Notes under the pieces: generated by a model
Told to the model about the DNA's origin: nothing
Seen by the model: only the letters and a program-made list of their open reading frames with translations
Database searches by the model: none
In this document: positions 31,471-50,762 of the stretch, piece after piece
Numbering within the stretch: the first letter of the stretch is position 1
Layout of the letters: every line of letters starts with the position of its first letter
Position numbers and translations under genes: made by a program
From: Mogibacterium sp.
GTDB lineage: Bacteria > Bacillota > Clostridia > Peptostreptococcales > Anaerovoracaceae
Length of the DNA: 64,000 nt
Assembly: GCA_017510725.1 (NCBI GenBank)
Contig: JAFWMD010000048.1
Coordinates: 1-64,000 of the forward strand
Direction: 5' to 3'

Positions 31471-33072
31471 TCAGGCTTCCCCAAGGCCTTCGTAGTTAAA
31501 GATCATCATGGTGATGTCATCAAACTGCGGAGCATCACCAACGAATTCATCGATGGCGGCCTTTACAACAGGAAGTATCTCTGCAGTCCTCACCTCTGAA
31601 TTCCTGTTCAGAGTTTCAACCAATCGGTCTTCTCCGAACAGTTCCTCTTCAGCATTGGTAGCTTCAGTAACTCCATCGGTATATACGAAGAGCGAGTCTC
31701 CAGGTCGGAGTTCAAATTCATGCTCTCTGAACGGTATGTCTTCAATGGTTGACAGAGCCGGAGAATGTCTGTATTTGATCAGCTCGTACTCACCGTCCTT
31801 GCGCCTGAGCACCGGATGCATGTGACCGGCATTCGCAGCAATTCCTTTTCCCGTAGTGATATCTATCACTGCTATCCATACCGTAACAAAGAGACCGGTA
31901 TCATTCCCTTCAAGCAGCTGATTATTCACACGTTCAAGAGTCTCACTCGGACCGCGGCCTGACTGCATACTTGTTTTGAGAAGCACTTTGGATATCGCCA
32001 TGAAAAGTGCTGCCGGCACTCCCTTGCCTGATACATCGGCCATTACGAGTGCGATATGAGTTTCATCTACCATGAAGAAGTCATAGAAGTCGCCTCCGAC
32101 CTGCTTGGCCGGAATCATGGATGCGTACAGTTCAAATTCGCGCCTTTCAGGGAAAGGCGGGAAAATACTAGGCAGCATGCTCTCCTGGATGCGTTTTGCA
32201 ACATTCAGCTCGGTTCCTATACGCTCCTTTTCTGCTGTTACAGCTGAAAGTTCGCGGATATATTCGTGGAGATCTCCATCCATCTTTTTGATTGCATCCG
32301 CAAGGTTTTCTATTTCATCCCCGGTATGTATGTCGATATCTACCTCTCTGTCTCTTTCGAGATTATCTATCATCTCTCCGGCGCTCTTTGTCAGTATGCC
32401 TATCGGCTTTATGATGTTCTTTTCTACAGATGAATAGAACACTGCCAGGGCTATTATGGTAATTGTGAATATTGCCGCCAGTACGAGCAGCATGTACATG
32501 ACAATGGTCTTTCTGAATCCCGGTATCGAAAGGTCAACTCCAACTACTGCCACCGGATCTCCGGAACTGTTGAATATAGGTGAATAAGCCGATGCTATAT
32601 GTCCGTATTTTTTGTCCTTCTGGATACTGATCTTCTCGGGAGGATTCTGACGGAATATCTCAAAAGTATCTGCCTTGCTTTTTTCACTCATGTATGCTTC
32701 GTGATGGCCCAGATCACACGCACCTTCGACATTGACTGCATCCCAGACATATACCAGGTCGTTCTCATATGGCACAAAGACATAGTAATACTTGAGGTTG
32801 GTTTCATATTGAGTGGCATTCAGAAAATCCAGGATCTCATAATAATACTCATCCTTTTCTTCTGTTTCTACATATCCCAGTACTCTGTCGCCGTCTATGA
32901 CGCTTGCTGCAGTACGCGCAAAATCGAAAGCCTGCTCGCTGTATTGCTGCTTCTGCGAAAAATAATACTGAATGCAAACAAGGGCTCCGGTGGTAATAAC
33001 AAGCACCAGGGCAAACAGAACGATGCTATTGAGTACTTTTTTATTCAGACTCGTTTTTTTTGTTTTCTTCAT
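31471..33072 (-). CDS. Membrane sensor PP2C-type phosphatase (SpoIIE domain) with HAMP
   Basis: A 533-residue signalling phosphatase. It has an N-terminal membrane helix (about 15-36), an extracellular sensor region of about 160 residues with Cache-like features (YYYVFVPYENDLVYVWD, SPIFNSSGDPVAVVGVDLSI), a second helix (about 190-212), a HAMP segment, a short coiled coil, then a SpoIIE/PP2C catalytic domain: AKQVGGDFYDFF, LVMADVSGKGVPAALFM, ANAGHMHPVL, PGDSLFVYTDGVTEATN and FVGDAPQFDDITMM. Members dephosphorylate anti-anti-sigma proteins; no partner is in the window. Its start overlaps the acyltransferase stop (ATGA). Confidence 0.92.
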   Translation of the reverse strand: MKKTKKTSLNKKVLNSIVLFALVLVITTGALVCIQYYFSQKQQYSEQAFDFARTAASVIDGDRVLGYVETEEKDEYYYEILDFLNATQYETNLKYYYVFVPYENDLVYVWDAVNVEGACDLGHHEAYMSEKSKADTFEIFRQNPPEKISIQKDKKYGHIASAYSPIFNSSGDPVAVVGVDLSIPGFRKTIVMYMLLVLAAIFTITIIALAVFYSSVEKNIIKPIGILTKSAGEMIDNLERDREVDIDIHTGDEIENLADAIKKMDGDLHEYIRELSAVTAEKERIGTELNVAKRIQESMLPSIFPPFPERREFELYASMIPAKQVGGDFYDFFMVDETHIALVMADVSGKGVPAALFMAISKVLLKTSMQSGRGPSETLERVNNQLLEGNDTGLFVTVWIAVIDITTGKGIAANAGHMHPVLRRKDGEYELIKYRHSPALSTIEDIPFREHEFELRPGDSLFVYTDGVTEATNAEEELFGEDRLVETLNRNSEVRTAEILPVVKAAIDEFVGDAPQFDDITMMIFNYEGLGEA

Positions 33073-34223
33073 GATGATCCGAGTTCCTGCAGGCGCTCTT
33101 TTCTTTTTGCCTGACGGCCTGTTTTGAATATCTTATAGTAGTGTGCGATGATCAGCGTCACTATGAGAATTGCCAGTGAAATCAGCATGGTCTCCCATAA
33201 CGGAAGTATCTGTGTTCCATTCCTGATATATATTATAACATTTGTGATCGTCCTTACGAGCACCCAATGAATACAATATATCGCAGTTATGTTGTTGCTT
33301 ACCTCATAAAAAAATCCTTTGGTGTGGTTACTCATATAACGCGACAAAAGGTGCCATATTCCGAGCATTCCCAGATCAAGACACAGGCATACTGCTACAT
33401 CCCATATCATCATGTGATAGTAGCAGTTCTGTCCCTCGCCGAACATTCCCCATCCGAAATGGATGCCTATAGGAAAATATATCAGCGGTACAAGCATGGC
33501 CCACGGAGAGATGATACGATAGAAAGCCACTTTGTCCCTGACTCTTACATGGACCTTTCCGAACACATATCCCGCGACCGGAAATATCAGCCACGTAAGC
33601 AGAGGAAAGTCTGAGATCACATATCCGGTAGCATCATCGGTTCCAATGATATAGCCGAGAAAAATATTACCGAACATGGAATGTGTGTCCACATCACCTA
33701 TAAGGGTCGCGGATATAGTCATCACCCCTGCGATCCCGAGCATGGCTTTATCACTCAGTTTGAAATACCTGAATACTCCCATCACAATGATGGCCAGGCC
33801 GGCAAACAGAAGAACGTCATTGCCGAGCCACCTGTAGAACAGAGGCTCCAGGAAATGCTCCCTGTCCCCGCTTATCCTGTAGCCTATAAGATAAGGTATG
33901 AGGAACCTGCACGTGTTGCTCAGATAGAATACTCCAATAAGCCTTATGCCGCGTTTAAACCACAGCTCCGGTGTCTGTCTGTGACTGTAAACGAAGCACA
34001 TTCCCATGGCGAATAAATACATCGGAGCACTGAAAGGTCCGCCGATAATGGTATCGAAAAAATAAGGGATGCCACCGCAGAGTCCCTCTTCGCTTGTACA
34101 CTCTATTATGCAATGTATGAAAGGCAGCATCAGCACCATTTCGGCTTTTGCTATATCTATGTCGAGCTGCCTTCCCCTATTTACCGGCTCATCTGCCAGT
34201 AGTTCTCTCATTTGTTTCAGCAT
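33069..34223 (-). CDS. Multi-pass membrane protein, acyltransferase-3-like
   Basis: A 384-residue integral membrane protein with about ten helices. After a soluble start comes GRQLDIDIAKAEMVLMLPFIHCIIE, which resembles the opening R-x-x-x-I-D…H motif of acyltransferase-3/DUF1624-type proteins that acylate envelope sugars. Pieces such as FLIPYLIGYRISGDREHFLEPL and NNITAIYCIHWVLVRTITN also fit. The substrate is unknown. It is the first gene of a two-gene operon with the SpoIIE phosphatase (4-base overlap). I chose the ATG at 34223 since TAAAAT at 34230-34235 ends 6 bases before it; the other ATG (34229) touches the -10 box. Confidence 0.7.
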   Translation of the reverse strand: MLKQMRELLADEPVNRGRQLDIDIAKAEMVLMLPFIHCIIECTSEEGLCGGIPYFFDTIIGGPFSAPMYLFAMGMCFVYSHRQTPELWFKRGIRLIGVFYLSNTCRFLIPYLIGYRISGDREHFLEPLFYRWLGNDVLLFAGLAIIVMGVFRYFKLSDKAMLGIAGVMTISATLIGDVDTHSMFGNIFLGYIIGTDDATGYVISDFPLLTWLIFPVAGYVFGKVHVRVRDKVAFYRIISPWAMLVPLIYFPIGIHFGWGMFGEGQNCYYHMMIWDVAVCLCLDLGMLGIWHLLSRYMSNHTKGFFYEVSNNITAIYCIHWVLVRTITNVIIYIRNGTQILPLWETMLISLAILIVTLIIAHYYKIFKTGRQAKRKERLQELGSS

Positions 34224-34304: not shown

Positions 34305-34769
34305 ATGAAAAGATTTATTTACCCATTGATAGCGGCGCTCGTCATCGCCCTGGACCAGTTTACAAAATATCTCGTGAGAGCAAGCATGCAGCCTGGTGAC
34401 AGAATCCCTGTCATAGGAGACTGGATGAGCATCTATTATGTGCAGAACACCGGCACGGCGTTCAGCATGTTCAGCGGGAATCAGTTCGTTACTGTTTTTC
34501 TGACATCCGCGCTCATCATATTCTGCATAGGTTTCATTATTAAGGAAGCCCGCGACGGTAAGATGCTCGTGCCTCTCCTTTTCACTTTTGTTGCTGCAGG
34601 CGGAATTTCCAACATGATCGACAGGTTAACGCTCGGATTCGCGACCGACATGATCTCATGCGGCAGTTTCGCAGTCTTCAACGTCGCAGACATAGGCGTT
34701 ACATGCGGTTGTATCCTCGCCATGATAGCGCTGATAATCATGTATAAGGATGAGGAAAAGGAGGCTTAG
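34305..34769 (+). CDS. lspA: Lipoprotein signal peptidase LspA
   Basis: Membrane aspartyl protease that removes signal peptides from prolipoproteins after lipidation. The 154 residues have four helices and the catalytic aspartates Asp106 (GGISNMIDR) and Asp129 (FNVADIGVT), plus the early LDQFTKYLV and YVQNTGTAFSMF motifs. The start at 34305 matches the family N-terminus; the frame open to 34275 runs through the predicted promoter and would not be transcribed. A substrate is available here in the lipoprotein at 7234-8529. rluD follows directly, as in many bacteria. Confidence 0.95.
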   Translation: MKRFIYPLIAALVIALDQFTKYLVRASMQPGDRIPVIGDWMSIYYVQNTGTAFSMFSGNQFVTVFLTSALIIFCIGFIIKEARDGKMLVPLLFTFVAAGGISNMIDRLTLGFATDMISCGSFAVFNVADIGVTCGCILAMIALIIMYKDEEKEA

Positions 34770-48077: not shown

Positions 48078-49220
48078 TTAATCTGTTATATCTATGTCTG
48101 CTACGATGATCAGCTTGTAACCAGGATACCTTTCCGCTATCTCATCTTTCAGTATTTTTATTCCTTCACTGTGAGAAATATCAAAACTCATTACAACGTC
48201 AAATCTTATGATCTTTCTTTCTTCGTCTACATAGAAGCCGTGCATCTGAAGCGCCCACTCGTGTGTCAGCACTATCTCTTCAATTGCGGATCTCATGTTC
48301 TCAGCTTTCGAGTCAGTTTTCCGTGAATAAACACCGACTCCGGTCAGCACCACACCGGTCTCCCTGTATACTCTTTCGGTGAGTCTCCTGGTGAGCACGT
48401 CTACCTGATCCACTGTCATATTGTCCGGCAGTTCCACGTGGACAGAGGCGTATTCCCGGTCCGGCCCGTAGTTGTGCACAAAGAGATCGTATGCGCCAAG
48501 CACGGCAGGCTCGCCGGTAACTATTTCCTTTATCTTCTTTGAGACTTCCACATCAGCCCGTCTGCCCAGTATATCGCTGGTAGTGTCACTTATCATTTCG
48601 TATCCGGCTTTGATGATTAGGCCGGATATAATGACACCCATATATGCCTCAAGAGAAATACCTTTGAACGCATAAATCAGAGCTGTGATAAGTACTCCAA
48701 GAGAGATTGCCGCATCCGACAAAGCATCGGTTCCAGAAGCAATCAGCGCTCCCGATCCTGTCTGCTCACCCTTTGCCTTTACATATCTTCCGAGCAGTAT
48801 CTTTGTAACAACAGCAACTCCGATAATGACGAGAGCAACTGTTGAGTAGTGTGCCGCCTGCGGATGGATAATCTTTTTTATCGATTCAACCAGGGAGGTA
48901 ATACCGGCATACATGACTATTCCGGCCACGACAAGCGCTGATATGTATTCACTGCGTCCGTGCCCCAGCGGGTGATCCTTATCGGGCTTCTTCCCTGCTA
49001 CTTTTGCACCAATTATGGTTATTATCGACGAAAGCGCATCTGACAGATTGTTTACAGCGTCAAGTACGACGGCGATGGAATTTGAAATCAGTCCGACTGC
49101 AGCCTTGAATGCCGCAAGCATCAGATTTACGACGATTCCGATCGCGCTCGTCCTCACTATTATCTTTTCCCTTTGCTGCCGTTCACTCATTCCGTTCACT
49201 CTTTCAAATACGTTTCTCAC
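48078..49220 (-). CDS. Cation diffusion facilitator (CDF) transporter
   Basis: Secondary transporter exporting divalent metals such as zinc, iron or manganese. The 380 residues hold six helices and a cytoplasmic dimerisation domain with a C-terminal extension. Metal-site motifs are VLDAVNNLSDALSSI (about 56-70) and SGTDALSDAAISLGVL (about 160-175), with DHPLGHGRSEYI between them. The best start is GTG at 49220: TAAAAT ends 7 bases upstream and there is no Shine-Dalgarno, so the mRNA looks leaderless. An in-frame ATG ten codons later is the alternative. It is divergent from the glycosyltransferase gene. Confidence 0.9.
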   Translation of the reverse strand: MRNVFERVNGMSERQQREKIIVRTSAIGIVVNLMLAAFKAAVGLISNSIAVVLDAVNNLSDALSSIITIIGAKVAGKKPDKDHPLGHGRSEYISALVVAGIVMYAGITSLVESIKKIIHPQAAHYSTVALVIIGVAVVTKILLGRYVKAKGEQTGSGALIASGTDALSDAAISLGVLITALIYAFKGISLEAYMGVIISGLIIKAGYEMISDTTSDILGRRADVEVSKKIKEIVTGEPAVLGAYDLFVHNYGPDREYASVHVELPDNMTVDQVDVLTRRLTERVYRETGVVLTGVGVYSRKTDSKAENMRSAIEEIVLTHEWALQMHGFYVDEERKIIRFDVVMSFDISHSEGIKILKDEIAERYPGYKLIIVADIDITD

Positions 49221-49227
49221 GAATGTG

Positions 49228-49256
49228 ATTTTACTTCAAAAAAAACGCTCAGGCAA
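49228..49256 (-). promoter_or_regulatory. Promoter of the CDF transporter gene; leaderless GTG start
   Basis: On the minus strand TTGCCT (plus 49251-49256), 17-bp spacer, TAAAAT (plus 49228-49233). The GTG start codon at 49220 is 7 bases beyond. Confidence 0.65.
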
Positions 49257-49266
49257 TGCTGTAAGA

Positions 49267-49295
49267 TGGGAATCATGCAGTGAATCTGCTACAAT
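49267..49295 (+). promoter_or_regulatory. Promoter of glycosyltransferase gene at 49302; leaderless start
   Basis: Weak -35 TGGGAA (49267-49272), 17-bp spacer, extended -10 TGC-TACAAT (TACAAT at 49290-49295). The ATG is 6 bases beyond and there is no Shine-Dalgarno. Confidence 0.6.
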
Positions 49296-49301
49296 ACAAG
49301 C

Positions 49302-50762
49302 ATGGAAAAGAAACAGACTATTTGCTTACTTAATGACTCGTTCCCGCCGATAATTGACGGCGTTGCTAACGCAGTCCTCAACTATGCGCGGATAATTGAA
49401 AAGGATCACGCACACTCACTTGTAGTGACTCCACAGGTACCTGATGCGGACGACAGCGCATATGACTTCTCTGTAGTAAGGTATCCGAGCATCGATACCA
49501 GAAAGCTCATCGGATATGTTACGGGCTATCCGTTCTCGCCCGAGGCGGCACACGAGATAGAGGCGCAGAATGTATCACTCCTTCATGTACACTGTCCGGT
49601 CGTCTCATGCCTGCTTGCCCGGCAGCTCGCCGAAGCATACGGGCTGCCCCTGGTGCTTACATGGCACACCAAGTATGACATAGACATCGCAAACGCGGTA
49701 AAAAGCAAGCTGCTGCAGGAGGGTGCCCTTCAGGCCCTGCTGCGCAACGTGAATGCCTGTGATGAGATATGGACAGTCAGCAAGGGAGCCGGTGAAAACC
49801 TCAGATCGATTGGGTTTGAAGGCGATTATATCGTTATGCCTAATGGCGTAGATCTGCCCAGGGAAAAGGTGTCTGAAGACTTCATCATGCAGACAACAGT
49901 CGGATACGATCTGCCGGCCAAAGTTCCATGCTTTCTCTTTATAGGAAGGCTCATGTGGTACAAAGGCCTGCGGATCATACTCGATGCGCTTAAGCTTCTC
50001 GACAAAAGCGGTACTGACTTCCGCATGGTATTCGTCGGCGGCGGAGGAGATGAACAGGAAGTGCGTGAGTACACGAGAGAACTCGGCCTCGACCGCAAGG
50101 TGATCTTCACAGGAGCTATATCAGACAGGGAGAAACTGCGCGCATGGTACAGCCGTGCAAACCTCTTCCTCTTCCCTTCGACTTTTGATACAAACGGGCT
50201 GGTAGTGAGAGAGGCTGCTGCTTCCGACACCGCTTCGGTGATCGTAGCAGGAAGCTGTGCATCAGAAGGTGTGACAGACGGGCAGAACGGATTTCTCATC
50301 GACGAGAATGCTGAGTCCCTGGCTGAAAAACTCACTGAACTATGTGCAGATCCCGAAATCATGAAAGCCGTCGGTAAGGGTGCAGGCAATGAGCTGTATA
50401 TATCCTGGACTGATGCTGTCGCTCACGCATATGAGCGTTATGAGACTGTTATCGATAATTACAGGAGCGGCTTCTACGGCAAGCGCGATCCAATAAAAGG
50501 ATCATGGATGCAGTCTCAGGGTGAATTGATGCAGATACTGGGAGATATCAACGCTGCAGGCAAAGCTCTCAGGCAGGATTTTGCGGAAACACAGGAGGAA
50601 ATCGAAACATCCCTTCGCTCGATGCGCAACAAGGCAATCGTAGATGCAATTACCACCGGCTATGAGGCCCGGGAAAACCTTCGCTCGATCGGCAAAGGAA
50701 TCAGGGATCAGATCATAGAGGCCAGTGAAGACCTGTGGGAGAAGCTCGACCGCTATCTGTAA
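49302..50762 (+). CDS. Glycosyltransferase family 4, glycolipid-synthase-like
   Basis: A 486-residue GT-B transferase. The N-terminal domain starts with TICLLNDSFPPIIDGVANAVLNYARII, an opening seen in diacylglycerol glucosyl- and mannosyltransferases. TWHTKYD follows at about 126-132. The donor domain holds FLFIGRLMWYKGLRIILDAL (about 209-228), VFVGGGGDEQEVREY and NLFLFPSTFDTNGLVVREAAASD (about 285-307) with the E of the EX7E-type site. After about residue 390 a 95-residue helical extension (QGELMQILGDINAAGKALRQDFAETQEEIETSL) is unusual and may anchor it to the membrane. A role in membrane glycolipid synthesis is inferred. It is monocistronic. Confidence 0.85.
   Translation: MEKKQTICLLNDSFPPIIDGVANAVLNYARIIEKDHAHSLVVTPQVPDADDSAYDFSVVRYPSIDTRKLIGYVTGYPFSPEAAHEIEAQNVSLLHVHCPVVSCLLARQLAEAYGLPLVLTWHTKYDIDIANAVKSKLLQEGALQALLRNVNACDEIWTVSKGAGENLRSIGFEGDYIVMPNGVDLPREKVSEDFIMQTTVGYDLPAKVPCFLFIGRLMWYKGLRIILDALKLLDKSGTDFRMVFVGGGGDEQEVREYTRELGLDRKVIFTGAISDREKLRAWYSRANLFLFPSTFDTNGLVVREAAASDTASVIVAGSCASEGVTDGQNGFLIDENAESLAEKLTELCADPEIMKAVGKGAGNELYISWTDAVAHAYERYETVIDNYRSGFYGKRDPIKGSWMQSQGELMQILGDINAAGKALRQDFAETQEEIETSLRSMRNKAIVDAITTGYEARENLRSIGKGIRDQIIEASEDLWEKLDRYL

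Follow-up and report, generated by a model that had tools for sequence, protein, structure and literature searches.

What does the DNA between two genes read away from each other say about where their mRNAs begin? The locus in question lies in a stretch of 64,000 nucleotides, here called the window, from an assembly labelled Mogibacterium sp. (contig JAFWMD010000048.1). Two divergent promoter-like motif sets stand within the 81 bp that separate GTG 49220 from ATG 49302, with a gene for a CDF-family cation transporter on the left and a glycosyltransferase gene on the right. The first-pass annotation had proposed that both genes are leaderless, the transporter starting at GTG 49220 and the glycosyltransferase at ATG 49302, and that neither start has a Shine-Dalgarno (SD) sequence. 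The motifs were found exactly as it had placed them. On the minus strand, TTGCCT (49256-49251) is followed after 17 nt by TAAAAT (49233-49228) and after 7 nt more by GTG (49220-49218). On the plus strand, TGGGAA (49267-49272) is followed by 17 nt ending in TGC, by TACAAT (49290-49295) and, after 6 nt, by ATG (49302). An SD match of at least 4 nt is absent at both codons. We consider it highly probable that the stretch holds two divergent promoters of sigma-A type, that the glycosyltransferase mRNA is leaderless as part of a small set of leaderless-type genes, and that the transporter mRNA has an ordinary leader of about 30 nt. The features of the locus are as follows.

49302..50762, plus strand: GT4-family glycosyltransferase gene, predicted leaderless; 486 amino acids, ATG start; Pfam Glycos_transf_1 4.7e-30, Glyco_transf_4 5e-17
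49287..49295, plus strand: extended -10 box TGC-TACAAT, 6 nt before the glycosyltransferase ATG; the predicted transcription start is the A of the ATG
49267..49272, plus strand: weak -35-like TGGGAA, 17 nt from the -10 box; 3 of 6 positions match TTGACA
48078..49190, minus strand: CDF-family cation transporter gene, corrected start ATG 49190-49188, conserved in orthologs; 370 amino acids; TIGR01297 6.2e-51 (173.3 bits, passing the curated cut-off of 82.35)
49228..49233, minus strand: CDF promoter -10 box TAAAAT, 37 nt upstream of ATG 49190, for a predicted leader of about 30 nt
49251..49256, minus strand: CDF promoter -35-like TTGCCT, 17-nt spacing to the -10 box
49218..49220, minus strand: GTG taken in the first-pass annotation as a leaderless start, probably inside the CDF leader

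The glycosyltransferase start

The glycosyltransferase gene is very probably leaderless. Its start can hardly be moved because the conserved motif TICLLND, the first strand of the fold, comes within five codons, and ATG 49302 is the sole in-frame start listed near this motif in the window. The duplex energy of its pairing with the anti-SD is -0.7 kcal/mol. The rightward promoter would start transcription at the ATG or 1-2 bases from it, and an mRNA starting there would therefore have no leader. Such an mRNA would probably be read by a ribosome that binds the 5′-terminal AUG, which is a known mechanism.

The orthologs of the gene were compared on the same points. Each ortholog search of this study covered at most 40 genomes and 30 loci, and the ortholog starts were anchored by tblastn. 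For the glycosyltransferase, 44 distinct rows were counted, 16 of which scored as leaderless-type; L066, with a chance TATGAT beside an SD, and L091, with an upstream ATG, were not accepted. L073 had been dropped as a duplicate upstream region, and its restoration gives 15 leaderless-type rows including the window. Two rows (L021, L108) had no usable start, and 18 further glycosyltransferase rows and 20 CDF rows, largely duplicates of counted ones, were left out of the counts. The part of the first-pass claim that concerns this gene holds: the window and 14 orthologs (L063, L067-L074, L076, L077, L080, L081, L084) have a -10 box 6-7 nt from the ATG and no SD match of at least 5 nt. L084 lacks the TG extension of the box and L069 has a 4-nt SD match. 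In L077, L080 and L084 the upstream sequence is unlike that of the window, yet the spacing of 6-7 nt is kept. A -10 box at 6-8 nt and an SD tend to exclude each other among the rows (Fisher p 2.8e-5, not a true probability as the rows are related). The median anti-SD pairing energy is -1.3 kcal/mol in the 15 leaderless-type rows compared with -6.6 kcal/mol in 30 others.

A block like CTGTTACAATACA aligns across leaderless-type and leadered orthologs, and by eye a GGGAATC-like block is seen in the -35 region of part of them. Five close relatives (L064, L065, L066, L075, L099) share the same ctgTTACAATaca with the window and have 36-41 nt between the box and the first ATG. This ties the box to transcription and not to the start codon. 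It bears directly on another explanation, in which TACAAT is a chance match, the leader comes from another, unseen promoter and translation follows a non-SD route. Lone -10 matches do arise by chance, with 3.0 expected at 6-7 nt in 272 starts of the genome. However, a box stands at 6-7 nt in 14 orthologs, the three with divergent upstream sequence among them, and in the leadered sisters the same box is found 36-41 nt upstream. We regard a chance box at this gene as unlikely.

The probable start and leader of the CDF transporter

The transporter gene probably is not leaderless. GTG 49220 does not stand as its start: the conserved start in the orthologs corresponds to ATG 49190-49188 of the window, 30 nt further into the gene. 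Among 26 counted rows (window included; L040, L077 and L086 had no usable start), an SD match of at least 4 nt precedes the conserved ATG in 21 and one of at least 5 nt in nine. None of the 26 has a -10 box 6-8 nt from this ATG. In 16 of the 26, the window with its 37 nt among them, TAAAAT or TAGAAT is found 30-51 nt upstream of the conserved ATG. Only the window (GTG) and L066 (ATG) have an in-frame start codon directly after the box; the other 24 have none. From the ortholog starts, the box distances and the rarity of an in-frame codon it follows that GTG 49220 most likely lies in the CDF leader. The transporter was accordingly rejected as a leaderless candidate on the evidence of its orthologs. 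The leftward promoter would thus give an ordinary mRNA, translated from ATG 49190 after a leader of about 30 nt.

The original proposal, with both genes leaderless and the transporter starting at GTG 49220, can be defended on the grounds that TAAAAT-7-GTG in the window is in frame with the gene and open, and that L066 has an in-frame ATG likewise 7 nt past its TAAAAT. But these are just two of 26 rows, the downstream ATG is the conserved start, and no row has the box at 6-8 nt from it. Furthermore, all 60 accepted leaderless-type rows of the glycosyltransferase and three other families (ruvC, type I asparaginase and lspA, with the lspA of the window counted twice) begin with ATG and none with GTG. 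We find a leaderless transporter highly improbable. A variant would explain the codon behind the box as the start of a tiny leaderless upstream frame that is coupled to CDF translation and has become fused with the gene in the window. It is in keeping with an ATG 7 nt past the CDF TAAAAT in L063, L064, L065, L066, L067, L069 and L099, where the tiny frames vary in length and may have arisen by chance, and with an overlap, judged by eye, of the end of the frame with the CDF start in L063, L064 and L099. Against it, inspection by eye showed that the length is inconstant (a stop follows the ATG directly in L065 and L069, after a few codons in L067), that the predicted peptides are dissimilar and that L068, L071 and L075 have no start codon there. 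We consider this variant very improbable, and an ordinary leader remains our preferred reading for the transporter.

The start of the CDF gene is hereby corrected, and the case teaches that a -10 box close to a start codon should not be trusted until orthologs support it. A second CDF-family copy is present in the genome (G000:C13:22800-23897; L134:2755-3900). This copy, 61% identical, contains a single in-frame TAA some 80 codons from its end.

Leaderless-type genes elsewhere in the genome

The first-pass annotation had also supposed a distinct translation class and named a check, the count of -10 boxes near starts without SD compared with shuffled upstream regions. The count was made in 679,018 bp of the 2,406,681-bp genome (2.41 Mb, 91 contigs), where 583 genes were called with a custom caller on codon usage, not with Prodigal. 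A -10 box was defined as TAnnnT agreeing with TATAAT at 5 or more of the 6 positions, and an extended box as TGN-TAnnnT; for this count, starts without SD are those with no match of at least 5 nt. Among 272 ATG candidates without SD (199 genes), 13 have a box at 6-7 nt, against 3.03 in dinucleotide shuffles (0 of 200 reach 13) and 2.04 per position elsewhere. Extended boxes at 6-7 nt were seen eight times against 0.56 in shuffles, and 0 of 200 were as high. As a control, 251 out-of-frame intergenic ATGs gave two plain boxes and no extended one. Before starts with an SD of at least 5 nt, a box at 6-7 nt was found in 0 of 157. The excess is about 10 genes in the 583 called, slightly less than 2%. 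A small leaderless class in the genome is supported by this excess and by the orthologs of four further genes.

These four were reached from the 21 genome starts that have a -10 box at 5-8 nt. Seven with a convincing start were picked by eye and tested on orthologs, namely the glycosyltransferase, the transporter, ruvC, type I asparaginase, lspA, a membrane acyltransferase and a sigma factor. These families were picked because the genome carries the box. Five of the seven were supported. The gene ruvC is leaderless-type in 14 of 30 rows (the best 30 of 35 matched genomes), with a spacing of 7 in all 14. Type I asparaginase is leaderless-type in 13 of 28 rows, with a spacing of 6 in all 13; its 30 loci came from 31 genomes and 28 were counted, L223 and L229 having no usable start. 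For lspA (30 loci of 40, giving 29 distinct rows with the window; L258 without usable start), 18 of 29 rows have the box at 6-8 nt, with L252 among the 18 a doubtful case. The acyltransferase has a spacing of exactly 6 in 10 of 16 rows (16 of 16 covered), and these are the 10 closest. When the glycosyltransferase, ruvC, asparaginase and lspA rows are pooled, an SD match of at least 4 nt occurs in 3 of the 61 that have a -10 box at 6-8 nt, compared with 51 of the 70 that do not; the rows are related. The glycosyltransferase would thus be one of a small leaderless-type set in the genus, together with ruvC, type I asparaginase, lspA and the acyltransferase. Two further candidates, L146:1300 and L113:13104, were dropped by eye as likelier internal or distant coding starts.

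Two genes of this set are themselves divergent neighbours in the window.

34305..34769, plus strand: lspA (signal peptidase II), leaderless candidate; TIGR00077 8.9e-27, above cut-off; TATTAT 7 nt before the ATG, no SD
33069..34223, minus strand: Acyl_transf_3 membrane acyltransferase, leaderless candidate divergent from lspA; PF01757 4.8e-10; TGG-TAAAAT 6 nt before the ATG

They are separated by 81 bp in the window and by 79-83 bp in nine other genomes; in G047 the gap is about 95 bp. In 10 of the 11 genomes where the two genes adjoin, a -10 box stands at 6-8 nt on both sides. The spacing in these ten is 6 for the acyltransferase and 6-8 for lspA; in the eleventh, G047, it is 9 and 7, respectively. 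This place is a candidate divergent pair of leaderless-type promoters. The divergent leaderless pair announced in the first-pass annotation is not supported at 49218..49304 on the CDF side and has its better counterpart here, at 34223/34305.

Two genomes of the same order were sampled over 200 kb each, which is too small for mapping the trait across the order. G036, from another family, shows an excess of extended -10 boxes (3 against 0.20, 0 of 200 as high) and a weak excess of plain ones (5 against 1.98, 6 of 200 as high), with 7 plain and no extended boxes in its 107 out-of-frame controls. The extended boxes of G036 (L150-L159) suggest that the class may be wider than the genus. No excess was found in the 200 kb of G024 (plain 3 against 2.17, extended 0; 6 and 2 in 86 controls).

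The promoter block of ruvC, GAACATAGACA (L135:3200-3272 on contig C19 of the genome; L170-L199), is common to leaderless-type and leadered rows and may be the site of a regulator. In the eight leadered rows (L190-L197) a block like GAACATAGACA is kept, TAAAAT or TAGAAT lies 31-39 nt from the ATG, and an SD match of at least 4 nt is present in four.

Probable gain and loss of the leader in the glycosyltransferase gene

In the alignment, leaderless-type glycosyltransferase rows differ from leadered ones by a gap between the -10 box and the ATG, which is 35 nt long in the pair L066/L067. The leader of L065 measures 36 nt from the box to the first ATG. An SD match of at least 5 nt is present in the leaders of L065, L066 and L075 and one of 4 nt in that of L099. 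The five leaders resemble each other more than letter shuffles do: over the ten pairs, 0-23 of 500 shuffles scored as high (the piece of L065 ran 9 nt into the coding sequence).

The protein tree of 47 rows places all 15 leaderless-type rows inside one supported clade of 22 rows. It contains six changes of state, at least four of which are forced by well-supported branches. In a tree from the first 450 coding bases of the 22 rows, well-supported branches force only two changes. The approximately unbiased (AU) test on 27 proteins rejects a single clade for the five leadered rows, for the inner clade's 12 leaderless-type rows and for all 15; on the first 450 coding bases of the 22 rows it rejects a single clade for the leadered five and for the 12. 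Repeated switching of the leader is likely on these comparisons. We propose that insertions or deletions of about 30-35 nt, placed between the ATG and a -10 box that stayed fixed, probably exchanged the two states several times. L063, which is leaderless-type, and L066, which is leadered, are two copies of the gene from one assembly (RGIG2535), either paralogs or the product of a mixed assembly that may hold two species.

Several observations weigh against the picture drawn here. Any single -10-like match is weak evidence, and the sigma-factor candidate (L135:13083) found no support, its closest orthologs having strong SDs or a different start. Among the leadered sequences, L064 of the glycosyltransferase and L190, L192, L193 and L197 of ruvC have no SD match of 4 nt. 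On the CDF side, the SD of the window is weak (GTGA; -5.1 kcal/mol), and in L043, one of the 20 rows left out of the count, TAAAAT lies 7 nt from the ATG and an SD match of 5 is present as well. The evidence for repeated switching depends in part on L066 and L067. Without them, the glycosyltransferase tree has three changes, only one of them forced, a single leadered clade becomes borderline (AU p 0.051) and a single leaderless clade has an AU p of 0.014. These two rows have promoter and gene in common. Over their first 1440 bases of coding sequence they differ at 20 positions, 12 of which fall within the first 150, so recombination further downstream may have taken part.

A more far-reaching reading is that the genus actively selects leaderless initiation for a few genes. 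The glycosyltransferase leader of about 30 nt would have been lost several times independently, and each loss would have kept the -10 box and brought the ATG to 6-7 nt from it. The pair of lspA and the acyltransferase would have kept both divergent leaderless-spaced promoters across species. We offer this as a tentative possibility, and rather doubt it. Close relatives share the glycosyltransferase gene and its promoter, some carrying a similar leader and others none, which makes the effect of the leader testable in one background.

The first-pass annotation had called leaderless mRNAs uncommon in Bacillota; they are not very rare there. Zheng et al. 2011 (PMC3160421) list leaderless genes in 56 of 209 Firmicutes genomes, with an average of 4.2% of genes in those, and already describe orthologs that switch between leaderless and SD-led. 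Mapping of transcription start sites gave about 2-3% leaderless transcripts in three solventogenic clostridia (PMC9045289), and leaderless transcripts are also reported for Clostridium acetobutylicum (PMC4533764). In Streptococcus agalactiae 8% of mRNAs (78) are leaderless, all with AUG and 90% starting at the A itself (PMC4448216). The start-site map of Clostridioides difficile has just 15 potentially leaderless genes (PMC7438776). For Bacillota, a leaderless share of a few per cent is thus already on record; in the collection of papers searched, none was found on leaderless genes in Mogibacterium or Anaerovoracaceae.

The genes described here resemble the TANNNT genes of PMC3160421 in having a TA-like -10 signal some 12 bp ahead of the start codon (here the first T is at 12-13) and no SD, and in the TG before the box, which occurs there in several low-GC genomes such as Lactococcus. 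The Firmicutes cases of that survey are mostly Lactobacillales and Mycoplasma, whereas here a clostridial Mogibacterium-like genus is concerned. The solventogenic species are likewise Clostridia and their 2-3% is similar to the excess of about 10 in 583, but they were studied on measured RNA and the present genes by sequence and comparison. C. difficile belongs to the same clostridial class. S. agalactiae is also a member of Bacillota and also uses AUG starts, but it belongs to another class and its transcripts were measured. What the present case adds is the series of leader gain and loss beside a fixed promoter: the switch in PMC3160421 is described as a distance between genomes, whereas here the indel itself is visible beside the conserved promoter. 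The class of genes is an ordinary one, but its record of leaders gained and lost is unusually clear, and the small set recurs in related gut bacteria. The closest named relatives are assemblies labelled Mogibacterium sp. or Clostridiales, many of them from the ruminant gut, and the tree taxonomy places Mogibacterium in Anaerovoracaceae.

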